This document shows positions 9,056-15,464 of a stretch of DNA of 64,000 nucleotides, piece after piece. Source of the stretch: Xanthomonas sacchari (GTDB lineage: Bacteria; Pseudomonadota; Gammaproteobacteria; Xanthomonadales; Xanthomonadaceae); assembly GCF_040529065.1 (NCBI RefSeq), contig NZ_CP132343.1:1488001-1552000 (forward strand), in the 5' to 3' direction. Numbering within the stretch: position 1 is the first letter of the stretch; every line of letters begins with the position of its first letter. The position numbers were made by a program, and so were the translations under genes. The notes below the pieces were generated by a model. The model did no database searches, was not told where the DNA came from, and was given only the letters and a program-made list of their open reading frames with translations.

Positions 9056-10117
9056 TCAGTAGGAAATGGTCGCCGAGGTGGCGGTGGTATCCACCGCGTA
9101 ATCGCACTGCACGTCCAGGCCGGAACTGTCGTTGTAGGACACCCATGCCGGCGATGCCACCTGTTGCATGCGGTAGTCGTAGACGCCGATCGCCTCGAAG
9201 GTGATGCGGCGGTCGGGCGGATACTGGTCGCAACTGTCCACCGCATACACTTCCAGCGCACCGCCCACCACCAGGTGCGTCCGGGAATTGATGTCGTAGG
9301 TGGTGCTGAGCCGCACGCTCTGGCCGGTGGTGACGTTGCGCGTATCGACGTTCCAATTGGCGCAGGGGCTGCCGTTGTTGCAGGTGGCATAGGTGTCGCC
9401 GACGATCCGGTCGCCGGCCTTGGCCGGGATGAAATCGCTGTACCAGACCATGCCGTCCTGGCAGCAATTCCAACTGCTCAGATCCCAGGTATTGCTGTCG
9501 CCGCGGTAGCCCAGCACCGGTTGCAGGATGGTCGGATCGTCGCTCTGCATGCCGGGGAAGAAATACACCGTCTGCTGCGCCACGTTGGTCGGGTTCTGCG
9601 GCACCGTCCAGCTGGCCACGATGCGGCCCATCTTGTTGCCGGTCACGTCGATGGCCGACTGCACCCAGTCGTGGGTGATCGGCGGCGGCACCGCGCGGCG
9701 TGCGCTGGAGGCCGCCAGTGCGGCGTTGCCGCGGACTTGCTGGCCATCCACGCCGCGTCCGTCAGGTCGTACCCGGATGCCGCTGGGCGTGAAGTTGTCC
9801 TGGGTGCAGGCCTGCGCCTGTTCGCGCACACCGTTGGCGCGCTGCAGGCCGCCGTCGCCGAGGACGCGTTCGTTGCGATGCACCTGGCGCACGCAGGCCG
9901 GCGCGAAGTAGCCGTAGGGGGTCTGGATGTAGTCGTCGGGAACCTCGGCGGGTTTGTGTGCGGCGCGCAGGGCGCCGGCCCGGGCCAGGCGCGCATCGGG
10001 TGCGGCGGTCTGCGCCAGCGCGCTGGCGCTGAGGCCGAACAGCGCCAGCATCAGCAGCAATGCGGTGCAGGCACGGTGACGCGAGGTCCAGGAAGAAGTG
10101 CGGAAGTCGGAGTGCAT
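9056..10117 (-). CDS. Secreted protein of unknown family
   Basis: 353 residues with a clear signal peptide (basic start, hydrophobic ALLLMLALFGLSASALAQ, cleavage after about residue 36). Residues 37–140 look like a pro-region. The remaining part is rich in beta-type, aromatic and polar segments with many Cys, Trp and Asn residues (ITHDWVQSAIDVTG, TVYFFPGMQSDDPTILQPVLGY, WNCCQDGMVWYSDF), suggesting a secreted beta-sandwich domain stabilised by disulfides. I do not recognise a named family or a catalytic motif; a beta-sandwich hydrolase or glutamic-peptidase-like fold is one guess only. It stands alone, transcribed away from the RNA methyltransferase gene. Upstream sequence to about 10500 carries no other gene. 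Confidence 0.75.
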   Translation of the reverse strand: MHSDFRTSSWTSRHRACTALLLMLALFGLSASALAQTAAPDARLARAGALRAAHKPAEVPDDYIQTPYGYFAPACVRQVHRNERVLGDGGLQRANGVREQAQACTQDNFTPSGIRVRPDGRGVDGQQVRGNAALAASSARRAVPPPITHDWVQSAIDVTGNKMGRIVASWTVPQNPTNVAQQTVYFFPGMQSDDPTILQPVLGYRGDSNTWDLSSWNCCQDGMVWYSDFIPAKAGDRIVGDTYATCNNGSPCANWNVDTRNVTTGQSVRLSTTYDINSRTHLVVGGALEVYAVDSCDQYPPDRRITFEAIGVYDYRMQQVASPAWVSYNDSSGLDVQCDYAVDTTATSATISY

Positions 10118-10539
10118 GGGAGTTCGCCTTGTCGTGAGAATGCGGAATGCGTTCTCGGGAGGCCATGCGGCGGCGCGGCGCGTTGCGGCGCCCTACGGTC
10201 GCGGCGTGCCTCCCGTCTGCGAAGCGAGTGGGATGGGACGTGGCTGTGCTCGATAGAGGCCTGCGTGGTCGCTGAGGAAGCGGCGACGATGGACCCAACA
10301 CGCAGCGCGCGCTTGTCGGATTTCCGCATGCCTCCCCGCGAATCCCGCATGGTGTGGGCGAGGGTGAACTGCTTCTCGGTCGCCGCCGCGATCTGGTTTG
10401 CGCTTCGTGTCCCGCGATGTAGACAAGTGCCGGCGCCGCGCTGGACCACGCCGGGGCAGCCGGCGGCGCGCGGATGAGCGAAAATGCCCGCAGCCCGCCG
10501 TTCCCGACGAGCGGCCCGCGCTTTTTTCAGGAGATTGCC
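10118..10539. other. Divergent intergenic region without a supported gene
   Basis: This 420-base stretch separates the divergent secreted-protein and methyltransferase genes. Frames cross it on both strands but none has a credible start, ribosome site or recognisable protein. It must hold both promoters; I could not place them confidently. Confidence 0.6.
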
Positions 10540-10587
10540 ATGCGTCATGCCCTTCGTTCCCGCTGCGCCACGGGCGTGCGCCGATGA
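10540..10587 (+). CDS. Short upstream ORF overlapping the rRNA/tRNA methyltransferase start
   Basis: A 15-codon frame (MRHALRSRCATGVRR) has a good ribosome site, CAGGAG, 6 bases before its ATG. Its TGA overlaps the ATG of the methyltransferase gene as ATGA. The downstream start has no ribosome site of its own, so translation could be coupled through this leader. The leader start is nearly identical to the start of the DUF4142 gene at 53441 (22 of 24 bases from the ribosome site through codon 5), so it could instead be a leftover gene fragment. No function is implied by the peptide itself. Confidence 0.4.
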   Translation: MRHALRSRCATGVRR

Positions 10588-11426
10588 CCTCGCCCTGGGG
10601 CAACCGCCCGCGCGGTGGAAATCCCCCCTCTCCCCCCGCGAGAGGGGCCGGGGGTGAGGGTCCGGCGGCCGCCACACCCCGCAACGAGCTGCGCCTCTAC
10701 GGCCTCAACGCAGTGCGCGCGGTGTACGCGCGGCGGCCGGAGGCGATCCGCAAGCTGTACCTGAGCGAGGCGCGGATCCCGGCGCTGCAGCCGCTGCTGA
10801 AGTGGTGCGTGGCCAATCGGGTCGGCTACCGCGTGGTGGACGAGGCCGACCTGCACAAGCTCGCCGCCAGCAGCCACCACGAGGGTGTGGTCGCCGACGT
10901 GCTGCGCGTCGCGCCGCTGGGCTTGGCCGACTGGCTGCAGACGCTGGCGCCGGGACCGGCAGTGGCGCTGTGGCTGGACGGCGTCGGCAATCCGCACAAC
11001 TTCGGCGCGATTTTGCGCTCGGCGGCGCATTTCGGCGTGGGCGCGATCCTGTTGCCGGAGCAGGCCGCACTGGCGCTGTCCGGTGCCGCCGCGCGCGTGG
11101 CCGAGGGCGGCGCCGAGGCGGTGCCGCTGGTGCGGCTGCCGCCGTCGGCGCAGGCAGTGGCGCAGGTGCGGGGCGCGGGCTTCGCCCTGGCGGCGACGCT
11201 GGTGGCCGGCGGCGACGATCTGTTCGCCGGCGCCTTGCCGCAACGCCTGGTCTACGTCATGGGCGCCGAGAGCGACGGCATGGATCGCGACTTCGCGCAG
11301 GCCTGCGACCTGCGCCTGTCGATCCCGGGCAGCGGCGCGGTGGAAAGCCTCAATGTCGCCGCCGCCACCGCGGTGTTGCTGGGCACCTGGCGCAGCCGGC
11401 ATCCACACCAACACGCTACGCGCTGA
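10584..11426 (+). CDS. TrmH/SpoU-family RNA 2'-O-methyltransferase
   Basis: 280 residues. After a low-complexity N-terminus, the substrate-binding domain begins at about residue 35 (LRLYGLNAVRAVYARRPEAIRKLYLSE). The SPOUT catalytic domain carries the three knot motifs: LDGVGNPHNFGAILRSAAHFGVGAIL, VYVMGAESDGMDRDF and LRLSIPGSGAVESLNVAAATAVLLGTW. It methylates a ribose in rRNA or tRNA using S-adenosylmethionine; RlmB-type 23S rRNA modification is the nearest idea. Residues 13–27 are encoded by a copy of the dispersed 'cccctctccc…gagagggg' repeat. No other in-frame ATG or GTG lies between the repeat and the conserved domain except within the domain itself, so the repeat appears to be translated. 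Confidence 0.9.
   Translation: MTSPWGNRPRGGNPPSPPARGAGGEGPAAATPRNELRLYGLNAVRAVYARRPEAIRKLYLSEARIPALQPLLKWCVANRVGYRVVDEADLHKLAASSHHEGVVADVLRVAPLGLADWLQTLAPGPAVALWLDGVGNPHNFGAILRSAAHFGVGAILLPEQAALALSGAAARVAEGGAEAVPLVRLPPSAQAVAQVRGAGFALAATLVAGGDDLFAGALPQRLVYVMGAESDGMDRDFAQACDLRLSIPGSGAVESLNVAAATAVLLGTWRSRHPHQHATR
10623..10664. repeat. Dispersed palindromic repeat inside a gene start
   Basis: The segment contains a 'cccctctcccc' arm, a 'gagaggggc' arm and the trailing 'gggtgagggtccg', the same pattern as the ends of the units in the array at 38745–39352, here in partial form. It lies inside the beginning of the methyltransferase reading frame and contributes a Pro/Gly/Ala-rich segment. Confidence 0.75.
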
Positions 11427-11620
11427 ACACCGCGGCCGGCTGCATTTGGCTACGAAATAGTGTGCGCGTCTGCCGGTTTCGGGTTTGCGGGGCGCGTGTC
11501 GGCGGCGTAGCGTGCAGGCGCGCCTCGTCGATGCGATCGCGCGCCGCGCGATGCGTGCCAGCGAGACCGCGCAGTTCCCCCTCCCGAAAGGGCCATCGTC
11601 ACTCCTGCGGAGATGTCGCT

Positions 11621-11701
11621 ATGAAGCTGCTGTTCTCCATCAAGCACCTGCTGTCGTCGAAGAAGCCGCTGAAGTCCTACGCCTGGTACATCTGGTACTG
11701 A
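11621..11701 (+). CDS. Putative RiPP precursor peptide (26 aa, aromatic C-terminal core)
   Basis: A 26-codon gene with a good ribosome site (GGAG at 11609–11612, 8 bases before ATG). Residues 1–18 form a basic, amphipathic leader with Lys at 2, 8, 14, 15 and 18 and Pro at 16. The last eight residues are SYAWYIWY, with five aromatics and no trailing sequence. The next gene, 91 bases downstream on the same strand, is a cytochrome P450. In cittilin and biarylitide systems a very short precursor with a C-terminal aromatic core sits directly before a P450 that joins the aromatic side chains; the cittilin core is YIYY, and this peptide ends YIWY. From this I infer a cross-linked Tyr/Trp peptide. 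Leader cleavage, ring topology and activity are unknown, and chance cannot be fully excluded without homologues. Confidence 0.8.
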   Translation: MKLLFSIKHLLSSKKPLKSYAWYIWY

Positions 11702-11738
11702 GCGCCCCGTGCGTTGCCGCGCGCTGTCGCGTGCGGCC

Positions 11739-11772
11739 GGTGCCCGGCGGCGACGACGCTGCGCCGGGCGCC
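11739..11772 (+). promoter_or_regulatory. Hairpin between precursor and P450 genes (possible attenuator)
   Basis: A 10-bp stem with one G·T pair (11739–11748 with 11763–11772) and a 14-base loop lies in the 91-base gap, just before the P450 ribosome site. A weak, T-containing tail (gttccttc) follows. Such a structure could lower downstream transcription or protect the short upstream message, giving more peptide than enzyme. Confidence 0.45.
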
Positions 11773-11792
11773 GTTCCTTCAGGAGACTCGCG

Positions 11793-12842
11793 ATGTCCAC
11801 CACCCTGGCCGATCGCCACGCGCGCGCCACGGTCTTCGCGCCGCGTCTGCAGGACTTGTTGCGCACGCATGTGGGGCAGGAGGCGTTCCGCCTGGATGCC
11901 GACACGGTCGGCGTTGCCGGGCCGACGTTGACCGACCGCCTGCTCGCGGCCCGGCCCGCGACCGAACACGAACGCCCGACCTTCAAACCGCTGCACGGCC
12001 GCTCGATCGCGCGCAGCGAAGCGGCCAAGCTGATGCAGGCGATCGGCCGCGACGTGCGCGAGGCGCTGAAGCGCCCGGTCCCCGCGACGCTCGACCTGTC
12101 CGGCCCCTGGCCGCATGTCGGCCATGTCTATCTGCGCGACCTGCTGCTCGGCGGCGATCCCTGGCGGCTGCGCCTGCTGATGGACCGCACCCTGGAACTG
12201 ACGCCGCGCCTGACCTGGGCGGTGATCGCCGCCGGTGCGCTCGCACCGCTGGCGCCGCGCGCGGACGCCTCGGCACTGGCCACGTTGCTGTCCGCGGCCG
12301 ACGGCTACCGCGAACGCCGCGACGCCATGGGGCTGTACCGGCGCACCGCCGCGCCGGTGTGCTTCACCATTTCCACCCTGGTCGCCAACGCGCTGTGGCT
12401 GGGCTCGCCGTTCGACCCGGATGTCTCCAACCGCAACATCCTCTACGAAACCCTGCGCCTGCTGCCGCCGTCCTGGAACATCCTGCGCAACGCCTCGCCC
12501 GAGTACGGCGCGCTGGATCCGCGCATCGGCGCCGGCGACGACGTGCTGGTACTGCCCTTGCTCAGCCATCGCGATCCGGCGCTGTGGGAGGAACCGGACG
12601 CGTTCCGGCCCGAGCGCTGGGACGGCCTGGACCCGGATGCGTTGCCCGGCTACCTGCCGTTCGGCCATGCCTCCGAGCGCTGCTGGGGCCGGCACATGGT
12701 GATGCCGCTGGCGGAACGGTTGCTGGACCTGCTGCGCAACCAGGGGTTGGTCGCCGACCCGCGGCAACGCCGCGCCGAGGTGCCGTTGACCGGCCTGCTG
12801 GGCGTCGCCCAGGTCGACGTGGTCCGGCACACGCGCGCCTGA
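11793..12842 (+). CDS. Cytochrome P450, putative peptide aromatic cross-linking enzyme
   Basis: 349 residues, shorter than the usual 390–410 of bacterial P450s. The K-helix motif E219-T-L-R222, the PERW-type region (FRPERWDGLDP, 271–281) and the heme-binding loop F290-GHASER-C297-WG are all present, with Cys297 as the heme thiolate ligand. The canonical second Gly of FGxG is Ala293. The expected I-helix acid/Thr oxygen-activation motif is not obvious around residues 188–203 (PVCFTISTLVANALWL), which is unusual and fits P450s that couple phenols rather than hydroxylate. The ribosome site is AGGAG at 11781–11785. It follows the 26-codon aromatic peptide gene, so I infer that it ties the peptide's Tyr/Trp side chains together. 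No ferredoxin or reductase is adjacent. A stand-alone P450 acting on a small molecule is the alternative. Confidence 0.88.
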   Translation: MSTTLADRHARATVFAPRLQDLLRTHVGQEAFRLDADTVGVAGPTLTDRLLAARPATEHERPTFKPLHGRSIARSEAAKLMQAIGRDVREALKRPVPATLDLSGPWPHVGHVYLRDLLLGGDPWRLRLLMDRTLELTPRLTWAVIAAGALAPLAPRADASALATLLSAADGYRERRDAMGLYRRTAAPVCFTISTLVANALWLGSPFDPDVSNRNILYETLRLLPPSWNILRNASPEYGALDPRIGAGDDVLVLPLLSHRDPALWEEPDAFRPERWDGLDPDALPGYLPFGHASERCWGRHMVMPLAERLLDLLRNQGLVADPRQRRAEVPLTGLLGVAQVDVVRHTRA

Positions 12843-12876
12843 GCGGCAGCGCACGCCGCACGCGACGCCGTAGCGA

Positions 12877-13926
12877 TCAGCTCGCTGCAGGCGGCGCGGT
12901 GGAGGCGCGGGTGACCAGGGTGTAGTCCAGCACCTGATGGATGCCGCGGCTGGGCAGGCCGTCGCGGCGCTGGCGGATCTCGCCGAGCAGCAGCGTCACC
13001 GCCGCCCCGCCCATCGCCGTGACCGGCTGGTGGATGGTGGTCAGCTCCGGCCAGATCGTCGTTGCCACCGGGGTGTCGTCGAAGCCGGCGATCGACAGAT
13101 CCTCGGGCACGCGCAGGCGCAGGCCGTGGGCGATCGCCAGCGCCGCCGCGGCCATGTCGTCGTTGCTGCACAGGATCGCGCTGGGGCGCGGCGCGGCCTG
13201 CAGCAGCGCGGTGGCCGCGAGCAGGCCGGAGCGGTAGGTGAACAGGCCTTCGGCCACGCGCTCCGGCGCCACCGTCAGCCCGGCCCGCGCCATGGTGTCG
13301 AAGAAGCCGCGGCTGCGCAGCGCGCTGGGCGTGTGGCCGGGATCGCCGCTGACGAAGCCGATGTCGCGGTGGCCCAGATCGAGCAGGTGCTGGGTGAGCG
13401 CGCATGCGGCCGCGTAGTCGTCGATGCGCACCGAACTGACCCCGGGCAGCGGCGCGCCGGTGGCCACCGCCACCAGCGGGATGCCGCGCGCCTCCAGTTC
13501 GGCGATGGTCTGCCGCGCATCGCACAGCGGCGGCGGCAGGATCAGGCCATCGGCGCCGGCATCGAGCAGGCGCTCGGTGGCGGCGCGCTGGCTGTCGCTG
13601 TCCTCGCTCTTCTCCACCAGCACCTGGCAGCCTTCCAGGCTACTGCGTTCGAGCACGCCGAGCATGAACTGGTTGAGGTAGGCCGCGCTGGGGTTGCTGT
13701 ACAGCACGCCGATGCGGGCCAGTCCTGCAGTGCGCAGCGAGCGGCCGGCGAGGTTGGGGCGGTAGCCGAGCGCCTGGATCGACGCCTCGACGCGCTCGCG
13801 CATGGTCGCGCTCACGCGCGGGTGGCGGTTGATCACGCGCGAAGCAGTCATCGGCGACACGCCCGCATGGCGGGCCACATCCAGCAACGTCACCGCTGAG
13901 CCCGCGCGACGTTGCCGTATGCCCAT
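12877..13926 (-). CDS. LacI-family transcriptional regulator
   Basis: 349 residues. An N-terminal helix-turn-helix and hinge are seen in VTLLDVARHAGVSPMTASRVINRHPRVSATMRERVEASIQALGYRPNLAGRSLRT. A periplasmic-binding-protein-like sensor domain follows (RIGVLYSNPSAAYLNQFMLGVLE … LCSNDDMAAAALAIAHGLRLRVPEDLSIAGFDDTP). It should bind a small ligand, usually a sugar, and control nearby transcription. It converges with the P450 gene and has the same direction as the M28 peptidase upstream. Neither neighbour is sugar-related, so its target is unclear; it could be remote, or it could control the peptide operon. The start gives the complete HTH. Confidence 0.94.
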   Translation of the reverse strand: MGIRQRRAGSAVTLLDVARHAGVSPMTASRVINRHPRVSATMRERVEASIQALGYRPNLAGRSLRTAGLARIGVLYSNPSAAYLNQFMLGVLERSSLEGCQVLVEKSEDSDSQRAATERLLDAGADGLILPPPLCDARQTIAELEARGIPLVAVATGAPLPGVSSVRIDDYAAACALTQHLLDLGHRDIGFVSGDPGHTPSALRSRGFFDTMARAGLTVAPERVAEGLFTYRSGLLAATALLQAAPRPSAILCSNDDMAAAALAIAHGLRLRVPEDLSIAGFDDTPVATTIWPELTTIHQPVTAMGGAAVTLLLGEIRQRRDGLPSRGIHQVLDYTLVTRASTAPPAAS

Positions 13927-13991: not shown

Positions 13992-15407
13992 TTACTCCCT
14001 GGGCGGTTCCACTGTCTTGGCCTGGCTGCCGAACCCGCCGTCGGCCTGCGCCGCCAGATACGCGAACACCGCATACGCGGCCACGTTCTGCGCCAGCGCC
14101 TTCGGGTCGATCTTGTCCAGGGTGTCGTCGGCGGTGTGATGCAGATCGAAGTAATCGCTGCCGTCCTGCGCCAGCCAGGCCCAGGCGCCGCCCTTGGCGG
14201 CGAGCGGGCCGACATCCGGGCCGGGGCCGCCGGCGTCCGGCGCGTAGGCGATGCCGAGCGGCGCCAGCGCCTCGGCGATCTGCCGAGTTGCTTCGCGCGA
14301 GCCGGCGGCGTCGCCGGAGCCGGTGTTGAAGGCGTAGATGCGGCCGGCGCCGAAATCGCTCTCGGCGGCGATCTGGTGCCGCGCCACGTCCTTGGCATGC
14401 GCCTGCGCGTACGCCTTGCCGCCGTACAGCCCCTGCTCCTCGTTGGCGAAGGCGATCACGCGGATGCTGCGCTTGGGCGCTTGCTTGAGCTGGCCGATCA
14501 GATGCCCGGCGGCCATGCTGATCGCCACGCCGGCGCCGTCGTCGATCGCGCCGGTGCCCAGATCCCACGAATCCAGGTGCCCGCCGATCAGCACGACTTC
14601 GTTCGGCAACGTGCGCCCGGTGATCTGCCCTATCACGTTGTAGGAGGTGGCGGTGCCGTCCCAGCCGCAGTCCAGCGCCAGGCGCAGGCGCACCGGGCCG
14701 CGCGCGAGCAGGCGCGCCAGCTGGTTGGCATCGGGCACCGACAGCGCCGCCGACGGCACCGGGGTCAGACCATCATCGAAGCGGGTGATGCCGGTATGCG
14801 GCACGCGGTGCGAATCGGTGCCGGCCGAGCGCATCACGAAACCGATCGCGCCCTTGCGGATCGCTTCGGACGGCCCCTTGCTGCGCACTGCGCCGCCATT
14901 GCCGTAGTCCTTGCCGTCGCGGGTGCGCAGCATCTGGTAGTCGACGAAGGCGATCTTGCCGCGTAGCGCATCGGCCGGCGCCGCCTGCAACGCGGCCAGG
15001 TCGGCGAAGCGCACCACCTCGGCCTCGACCGTGCCGCCGGGGCTGCCGCCCAGCGCGGTGACGGTCAGCGGTTGCGCATGCGCGCCGAGCACCTGCGCAT
15101 GTTCGCTGCGCCGCTCCCACTTCGGGAACGTCACCGGCTCGGTCCACACCTTGTCGAAGCCCAGCGCCTTGAATTTCGCCGTGGCCCAGGCCACCGCGCG
15201 TGCATCGGCCTCGCTGCCGGCCATGCGCGGGCCAATCTCGGTGGTCAGCGATTCGACCACCTTCCAGCCGGTGTCGTCGGCCAGCGCGCGTTCGCGCAGG
15301 GTCGCTGCATCGCGCAGCGCCGCCTCTGGAATGCGCGTGGCCTCGGCCGCGTCGGCGGTGGAGGACAGGCTCAGGACGGCAGCGATGAGGACAGCGAGAC
15401 GGCGCAT
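13992..15407 (-). CDS. Secreted M28-family metallopeptidase with PA domain
   Basis: 471 residues. A signal peptide (MRRLAVLIAAVLSLSSTADAAEA) points to export. The start is chosen because GGAG lies 6 bases before this ATG; an in-frame GTG six codons upstream lacks a site. A protease-associated domain occupies the middle. The zinc residues of the M28 fold follow in order: GGHLDSWDLG (His, then the Asp that supports catalysis), AIDDGAGVA (bridging Asp), ANEEQGLYGG (catalytic and ligand Glu), SDFGAG (Asp) and DLHHTADDTLD (His). The family removes N-terminal residues or acts as a carboxypeptidase on peptides outside the cytoplasm. It lies about 1.1 kb from the P450 cassette; a role in trimming that peptide is possible but unsupported. 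Confidence 0.93.
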   Translation of the reverse strand: MRRLAVLIAAVLSLSSTADAAEATRIPEAALRDAATLRERALADDTGWKVVESLTTEIGPRMAGSEADARAVAWATAKFKALGFDKVWTEPVTFPKWERRSEHAQVLGAHAQPLTVTALGGSPGGTVEAEVVRFADLAALQAAPADALRGKIAFVDYQMLRTRDGKDYGNGGAVRSKGPSEAIRKGAIGFVMRSAGTDSHRVPHTGITRFDDGLTPVPSAALSVPDANQLARLLARGPVRLRLALDCGWDGTATSYNVIGQITGRTLPNEVVLIGGHLDSWDLGTGAIDDGAGVAISMAAGHLIGQLKQAPKRSIRVIAFANEEQGLYGGKAYAQAHAKDVARHQIAAESDFGAGRIYAFNTGSGDAAGSREATRQIAEALAPLGIAYAPDAGGPGPDVGPLAAKGGAWAWLAQDGSDYFDLHHTADDTLDKIDPKALAQNVAAYAVFAYLAAQADGGFGSQAKTVEPPRE

Positions 15408-15464
15408 GGAGAACTCCGCGAACACAGGAACGAGGAGCTTAACAGTGCCTTGCCGCCGTGCACG

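Follow-up and report, generated by a model that had tools for sequence, protein, structure and literature searches.

The window analysed here is a stretch of 64,000 nucleotides from Xanthomonas sacchari. Between a SpoU/TrmH-type RNA methyltransferase gene and a gene for a LacI-type regulator it carries a 26-codon gene, followed on the same strand by a gene for a cytochrome P450. The features of the site are listed below (positions are those of the window; PMC11450843, PMC12352619, PMC13417212 and PMC13192836 are cited throughout for excerpts of their text).

10398..11426, plus strand: SpoU/TrmH-type RNA methyltransferase gene (start codon provisional; Pfam, 108 bits), one edge of the site
11609..11620, plus strand: ribosome binding site (GGAG) and spacer of the precursor gene, from reading of the sequence
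11621..11701, plus strand: atropopeptide (tryptorubin-family) precursor gene, 26 residues and stop (translation; NF038372.1)
11621..11680, plus strand: leader MKLLFSIKHLLSSKKPLKSY, with a KPLK motif at residues 15-18 (translation; motif list of PMC11450843)
11681..11698, plus strand: core AWYIWY, identical in letters to tryptorubin A (translation)
11793..12842, plus strand: atropopeptide-class cytochrome P450 gene, 349 residues, predicted cross-linker (Pfam p450, 49.1 bits; identity to relatives)
12877..13875, minus strand: LacI-type regulator gene (stretch used, start codon provisional), the other edge of the site and outside the cassette; matched in 20/20 genus genomes, partially in one (G001)
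13992..15425, minus strand: M28 peptidase gene, a neighbour

Translation of the small gene gives MKLLFSIKHLLSSKKPLKSYAWYIWY, then a stop. Its GGAG (11609-11612) lies 8 bases upstream of the ATG and is common to six close relatives, in all of which the spacer is 1 base longer. In the window genome the same reading frame stays open a long way upstream of this ATG. Since the six relatives have the extra spacer base and two of them lack the upstream ATG, we take the ATG at 11621 as the shared start. The border between leader and core was placed at 11680/11681, as inferred from the tryptorubin product. The P450 gene starts 91 bases after the end of the precursor gene and has AGGAG at 11781-11785 upstream of its own ATG; its product carries the ExxR motif as ETLR (residues 219-222) and the haem motif as FGHASERCWG (residues 290-299). 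The initial annotation of this DNA had described a 26-codon gene with a ribosome binding site, an aromatic C-terminal end SYAWYIWY and a P450 with both motifs, all of which translation confirmed. A promoter scan at the locus found 0 sites (0.0 expected), and terminator and Rfam scans gave no match.

The peptide scores 54.7 bits against NF038372.1, the NCBIfam model of the tryptorubin family RiPP precursor (cut-off 33), with positions 1-26 of 26 aligned. In the 4.96-Mb genome this site is the sole match to the model (E 6.7e-13), and none was found in 14 control genomes; the peptide is thus more than a chance reading frame. Atropopeptides are recognized by Trp at core position 2 (PMC11450843), which is the residue found here (A-W-Y-I-W-Y), and by a leader motif; KPLK is on the published list of such motifs, which stand at residues 17-20 of the precursors in that paper. 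With the precursor above the curated cut-off and a P450 of the class adjoining it, the locus is by its sequence a member of the atropopeptide family. The Trp had been taken in the initial annotation for a new variant; this is not supported, as xWxxWx is the ordinary atropopeptide core pattern (PMC11450843) and AWYIWY is the core of tryptorubin A. Tryptorubin B is Trp-Tyr-Ile-Trp-Tyr, and the hexapeptide carries one further N-terminal Ala (PMC11450843).

Assignment of the P450 to the class rests on its identity of 60-94% to P450s that adjoin tryptorubin-type precursors (60-81% outside the closest group), in a comparison set that did not include WP_007820080.1 (TryB), the enzyme proven for tryptorubin A. 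Among the P450s in the 60-81% range are those of Embleya scabrispora (L118) and Amycolatopsis xylanica (L115), the sources of scabrirubin and of the amyxirubins, respectively (PMC11450843). The top NCBIfam model for the enzyme, that of the aminopyruvatide P450 ApyO, gives 67 bits (cut-off 525) over residues 215-322 only. A PDB sequence search had a best E-value of 1.4e-8, and the best 60 of its 159 matches bear general P450 names, one of them being entry 9ulw (376 residues), named only Cytochrome P450. The motif [AG]Gx[DE]T, usual in P450s, is absent from all 91 P450 rows that we compared (the window and 90 others, some of them near-copies).

To place the pair among its relatives, genome contigs were searched with an alignment of 11 P450s, and the best 80 of 101 relatives were taken. 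They come from Xanthomonas, Collimonas, Dyella, Luteibacter, Burkholderia multivorans and many Streptomyces and other actinomycetes. In 78 of these 80 loci a precursor ends 64-266 bases upstream of the matched P450 stretch, by a pattern that itself requires a KSLK-like motif and a Trp; the other two (L081 and L116) have no precursor by this pattern. The commonest core among the 78 loci is AWYIWY (23), followed by AWYLWY (20) and AWYFWY (14). AWYIWY occurs in Xanthomonas, Collimonas, Dyella, Streptomyces, Kitasatospora and Streptacidiphilus.

A tree was made from 89 of the 91 P450 rows, L042 being left out for an internal stop and L002 because it was taken as the same record as L041. In this tree the 20 Pseudomonadota rows form one side of a branch (98/99) and the 69 actinomycete rows the other; the window P450 groups with its Xanthomonas kin. 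AWYIWY cores go with P450s on both sides of the branch, and on the actinomycete side they turn up at several separate points. Tryptorubin A cores in several clusters have been described, and their repeated origin suggested (PMC11450843).

Within the genus, an intact P450 of atropopeptide kind was found in 8 of 20 Xanthomonas genomes, and these eight are also the ones that match the precursor model. The pair is absent in 11, and one further genome (G018, locus L032) has a P450 remnant, corresponding to query residues 217-346 only, with no precursor match. Five of six close relatives of the same genus have an identical peptide, and the sixth carries the replacement I7L; the seven close sequences, window included, have silent variation at three codons and a replacement at one. 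For the precursor gene pN is 0-0.017 and pS 0.06-0.12 in the six close relatives, 0.03-0.13 and 0.36-0.71 in five more distant Xanthomonas, and 0.16-0.22 and 0.33-0.90 in four loci of other genera. Silent change per site thus exceeds replacement in 15/15 comparisons, a set that left out X. vasicola (L047) and G017, the two with the most divergent cores. With no more than about 2.3 silent sites in the core, the case for its conservation comes chiefly from the lack of replacements. The core is not fixed in the genus, since some Xanthomonas relatives have others: SWYIWY, AWYLWY, SWGLYM and, in G017, the pair SWPHWY and AWEGYISY.

A minimal precursor and P450 unit of RiPP type had been claimed for this DNA; this is supported, and the unit is conserved and under selection. 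The outcome that the annotation had held against its reading, a lack of conservation of the peptide beside this P450, did not occur, although the pair is lacking in more than half of the genus genomes. In the wider order the precursor was above cut-off in 15 of 397 genomes.

Genome G017 (L031) has a P450 that is 76% identical to that of the window and two tandem precursors with the cores given above, one of which is above the NF038372.1 cut-off and one below it. In X. cucurbitae (L042) the P450 reads with one internal stop.

The Xanthomonas loci share a gene order in which the cassette lies beside the LacI gene, followed by M28 peptidase, MscL and FAH genes. The M28 gene was found in L033-L035, L040-L045, L047 and L113; in G018 it reads in four pieces. 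Proteases are often linked to these P450s in Xanthomonas, and a cleavage role has been suggested for them (PMC11450843). For the M28 peptidase such a role in leader removal is unlikely, as its gene lies beside LacI in 10 of the 11 cassette-free genomes (L148-L154 and L156-L158, the exception being L155) and no match to it was found in L031, the locus of G017, which keeps the cassette. Because M28 is retained in these 10 genomes, we read its linkage to the cassette as probably inherited gene order only. This result weakens the published suggestion of a pathway role for nearby Xanthomonas proteases, but for M28 alone, since the cited passages do not name the proteases counted.

The gap between the trmH-type and LacI genes (window 11427-12876) is a variable site in the genus, holding the atropopeptide pair, a carboxylesterase-like frame or 157-311 bases. 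Among the cassette-free loci the carboxylesterase-like frame, named by eye, is seen in L148, L151, L152, L153 and L156, and 157-311 bases only in L149, L154 and L158. In L150, L155 and L157 the stretch examined gave no trmH match; L150 and L157 have other frames beside LacI, again by eye. A 353-residue protein encoded at window 9056-10117 (minus strand), secreted-looking by eye and with zero Pfam matches, is also found in several relatives, close to the trmH-type gene.

Weak P450 matches in three genomes of the same family, G031 (L159), G026 (L160) and G033 (L161), belong to a different RiPP-like unit, located at 4526-8997 of L159, 4141-8188 of L160 and about 3791-8596 of L161. This unit comprises a P450 of 379 residues, between one and three small frames with the ending WRW-x2-YHNI, another P450-like frame and a frame resembling a MatE transporter; Pfam confirmed P450 or MatE for each of three L159 and two L160 frames. 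Of three typed WRW-x2-YHNI precursors, two gave 17.8 and 21.1 bits with the hyalucidin A model (cut-off 35) and the third did not match it. A match to one of these precursors was found in 8 of 198 family genomes, that in G224 being weak and containing a stop.

The gene pair and its conservation are observed directly. We have little doubt that the locus is a minimal tryptorubin-type atropopeptide gene pair, as to both family and route. The route can be drawn by comparison with the characterised pairs of PMC11450843 and PMC12352619. The leader, with its KPLK motif, would bring the precursor to the P450 and dock it there, with the core threaded in, and the P450 would then oxidise aromatic side chains of AWYIWY. 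Three bonds, those of tryptorubin, would most likely result: a Trp-Trp C-C bond, a Trp-Tyr C-N bond and a Trp-to-backbone C-N bond that gives a pyrroloindoline. Proteases encoded elsewhere in the genome would free the hexapeptide, and trimming to WYIWY may follow. By analogy with these pairs, it is probable that exactly this bond set is made here. The computed [M+H]+ expected for AWYIWY after loss of 4 H is 897.393, and that for WYIWY after the same loss 826.356; with a loss of 2 H the values would be 899.409 and 828.372. The loss of 4 H for three bonds follows from laurentirubin B, reported at 824.340 with one more bond than tryptorubin B has (PMC11450843).

Within this tryptorubin-type reading the P450 might cross-link AWYIWY in another pattern, through a single Trp-Trp bond for instance, and so yield a new compound. 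The separation of the 20 Pseudomonadota P450s from the actinomycete ones would agree with this, and precedents exist: one P450 can give non-overlapping products from one core, ScaB sets only one bond on WYIWY (PMC11450843, PMC12352619), and one core can yield different bond patterns, as in the varsorubins (PMC11450843). However, P450s merely 59% identical yielded the same amyxirubin B (PMC11450843), which makes distance between the enzymes a poor predictor of new bonds, and we regard a different pattern as possible, with the chances clearly against it. It is improbable that the cassette is a decaying relic that has no product in the window strain. The patchy occurrence in the genus, where 11 of 20 genomes lack such a P450 and another keeps a remnant, and the internal stop in X. 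cucurbitae would suit a relic, but both window genes are intact with ribosome sites and silent change is in excess.

The least likely reading, for which we see hardly any chance, is the one first proposed, a unit of cittilin or biarylitide type with a small basic leader, a YIWY core and bridges of Tyr-Tyr or Tyr-Trp kind. That the product is a RiPP cross-linked by a P450 holds, in that aromatic cross-links are expected here; the kind was misjudged, the locus being of the atropopeptide family. The likeness to cittilins and biarylitides is real enough: these are short peptides with P450-made aryl cross-links, a small gene is followed by a P450 gene in the same order, and the core end is one residue away from the cittilin core, YIYY. 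But biarylitide precursors have five residues (PMC13417212), as against 26 here, and cittilin bridges lie between tyrosines (PMC11450843), while the present core has two Trp and is of the xWxxWx class. The NF038372 match, the KPLK motif and the Trp at position 2 all point to atropopeptides. Precursor length, model match and core pattern together speak against both types.

With tryptorubin-type atropopeptides as the preferred reading, the locus belongs to an already described family and is not of a new kind. Atropopeptide clusters in Xanthomonas are already in print (PMC11450843, the one open-licence paper found on them), and the present one may be among the 683 clusters reported by AtropoFinder. 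What is added here is the single Pseudomonadota P450 clade (98/99) and the finding that 10 of 11 cassette-free genomes retain M28. According to the excerpt of PMC12352619, the Pseudomonadota had, as of August 2025, yielded no reported atropopeptide product. We lean towards the view that a Xanthomonas uses its own P450 to make tryptorubin A or an isomer with different bonds, which would be the first Gram-negative atropopeptide; if so, the same core of six letters would either have persisted across two phyla or been arrived at anew.

Among characterised systems, the aminopyruvatide P450 ApyO is likewise a RiPP cross-linker and its model is the one nearest to the window P450, below cut-off as given above; it differs in forming a bond in a YLY motif (PMC13192836). 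XaaA (core WALYISY) is also from Pseudomonadota and belongs to the same precursor family, whereas its product is of the WxxY type and was matured by a foreign P450, and the window core is of the WxxW type. The tryptorubin A/B pair of Streptomyces shares with the window the arrangement of precursor and P450, the AWYIWY core, a leader motif of the KSLK class and the tryptorubin model of NCBIfam, whose cut-off the window precursor exceeds. It differs in that the host here is a member of the Pseudomonadota and the P450 branches separately from the actinomycete rows compared, TryB not being among them.
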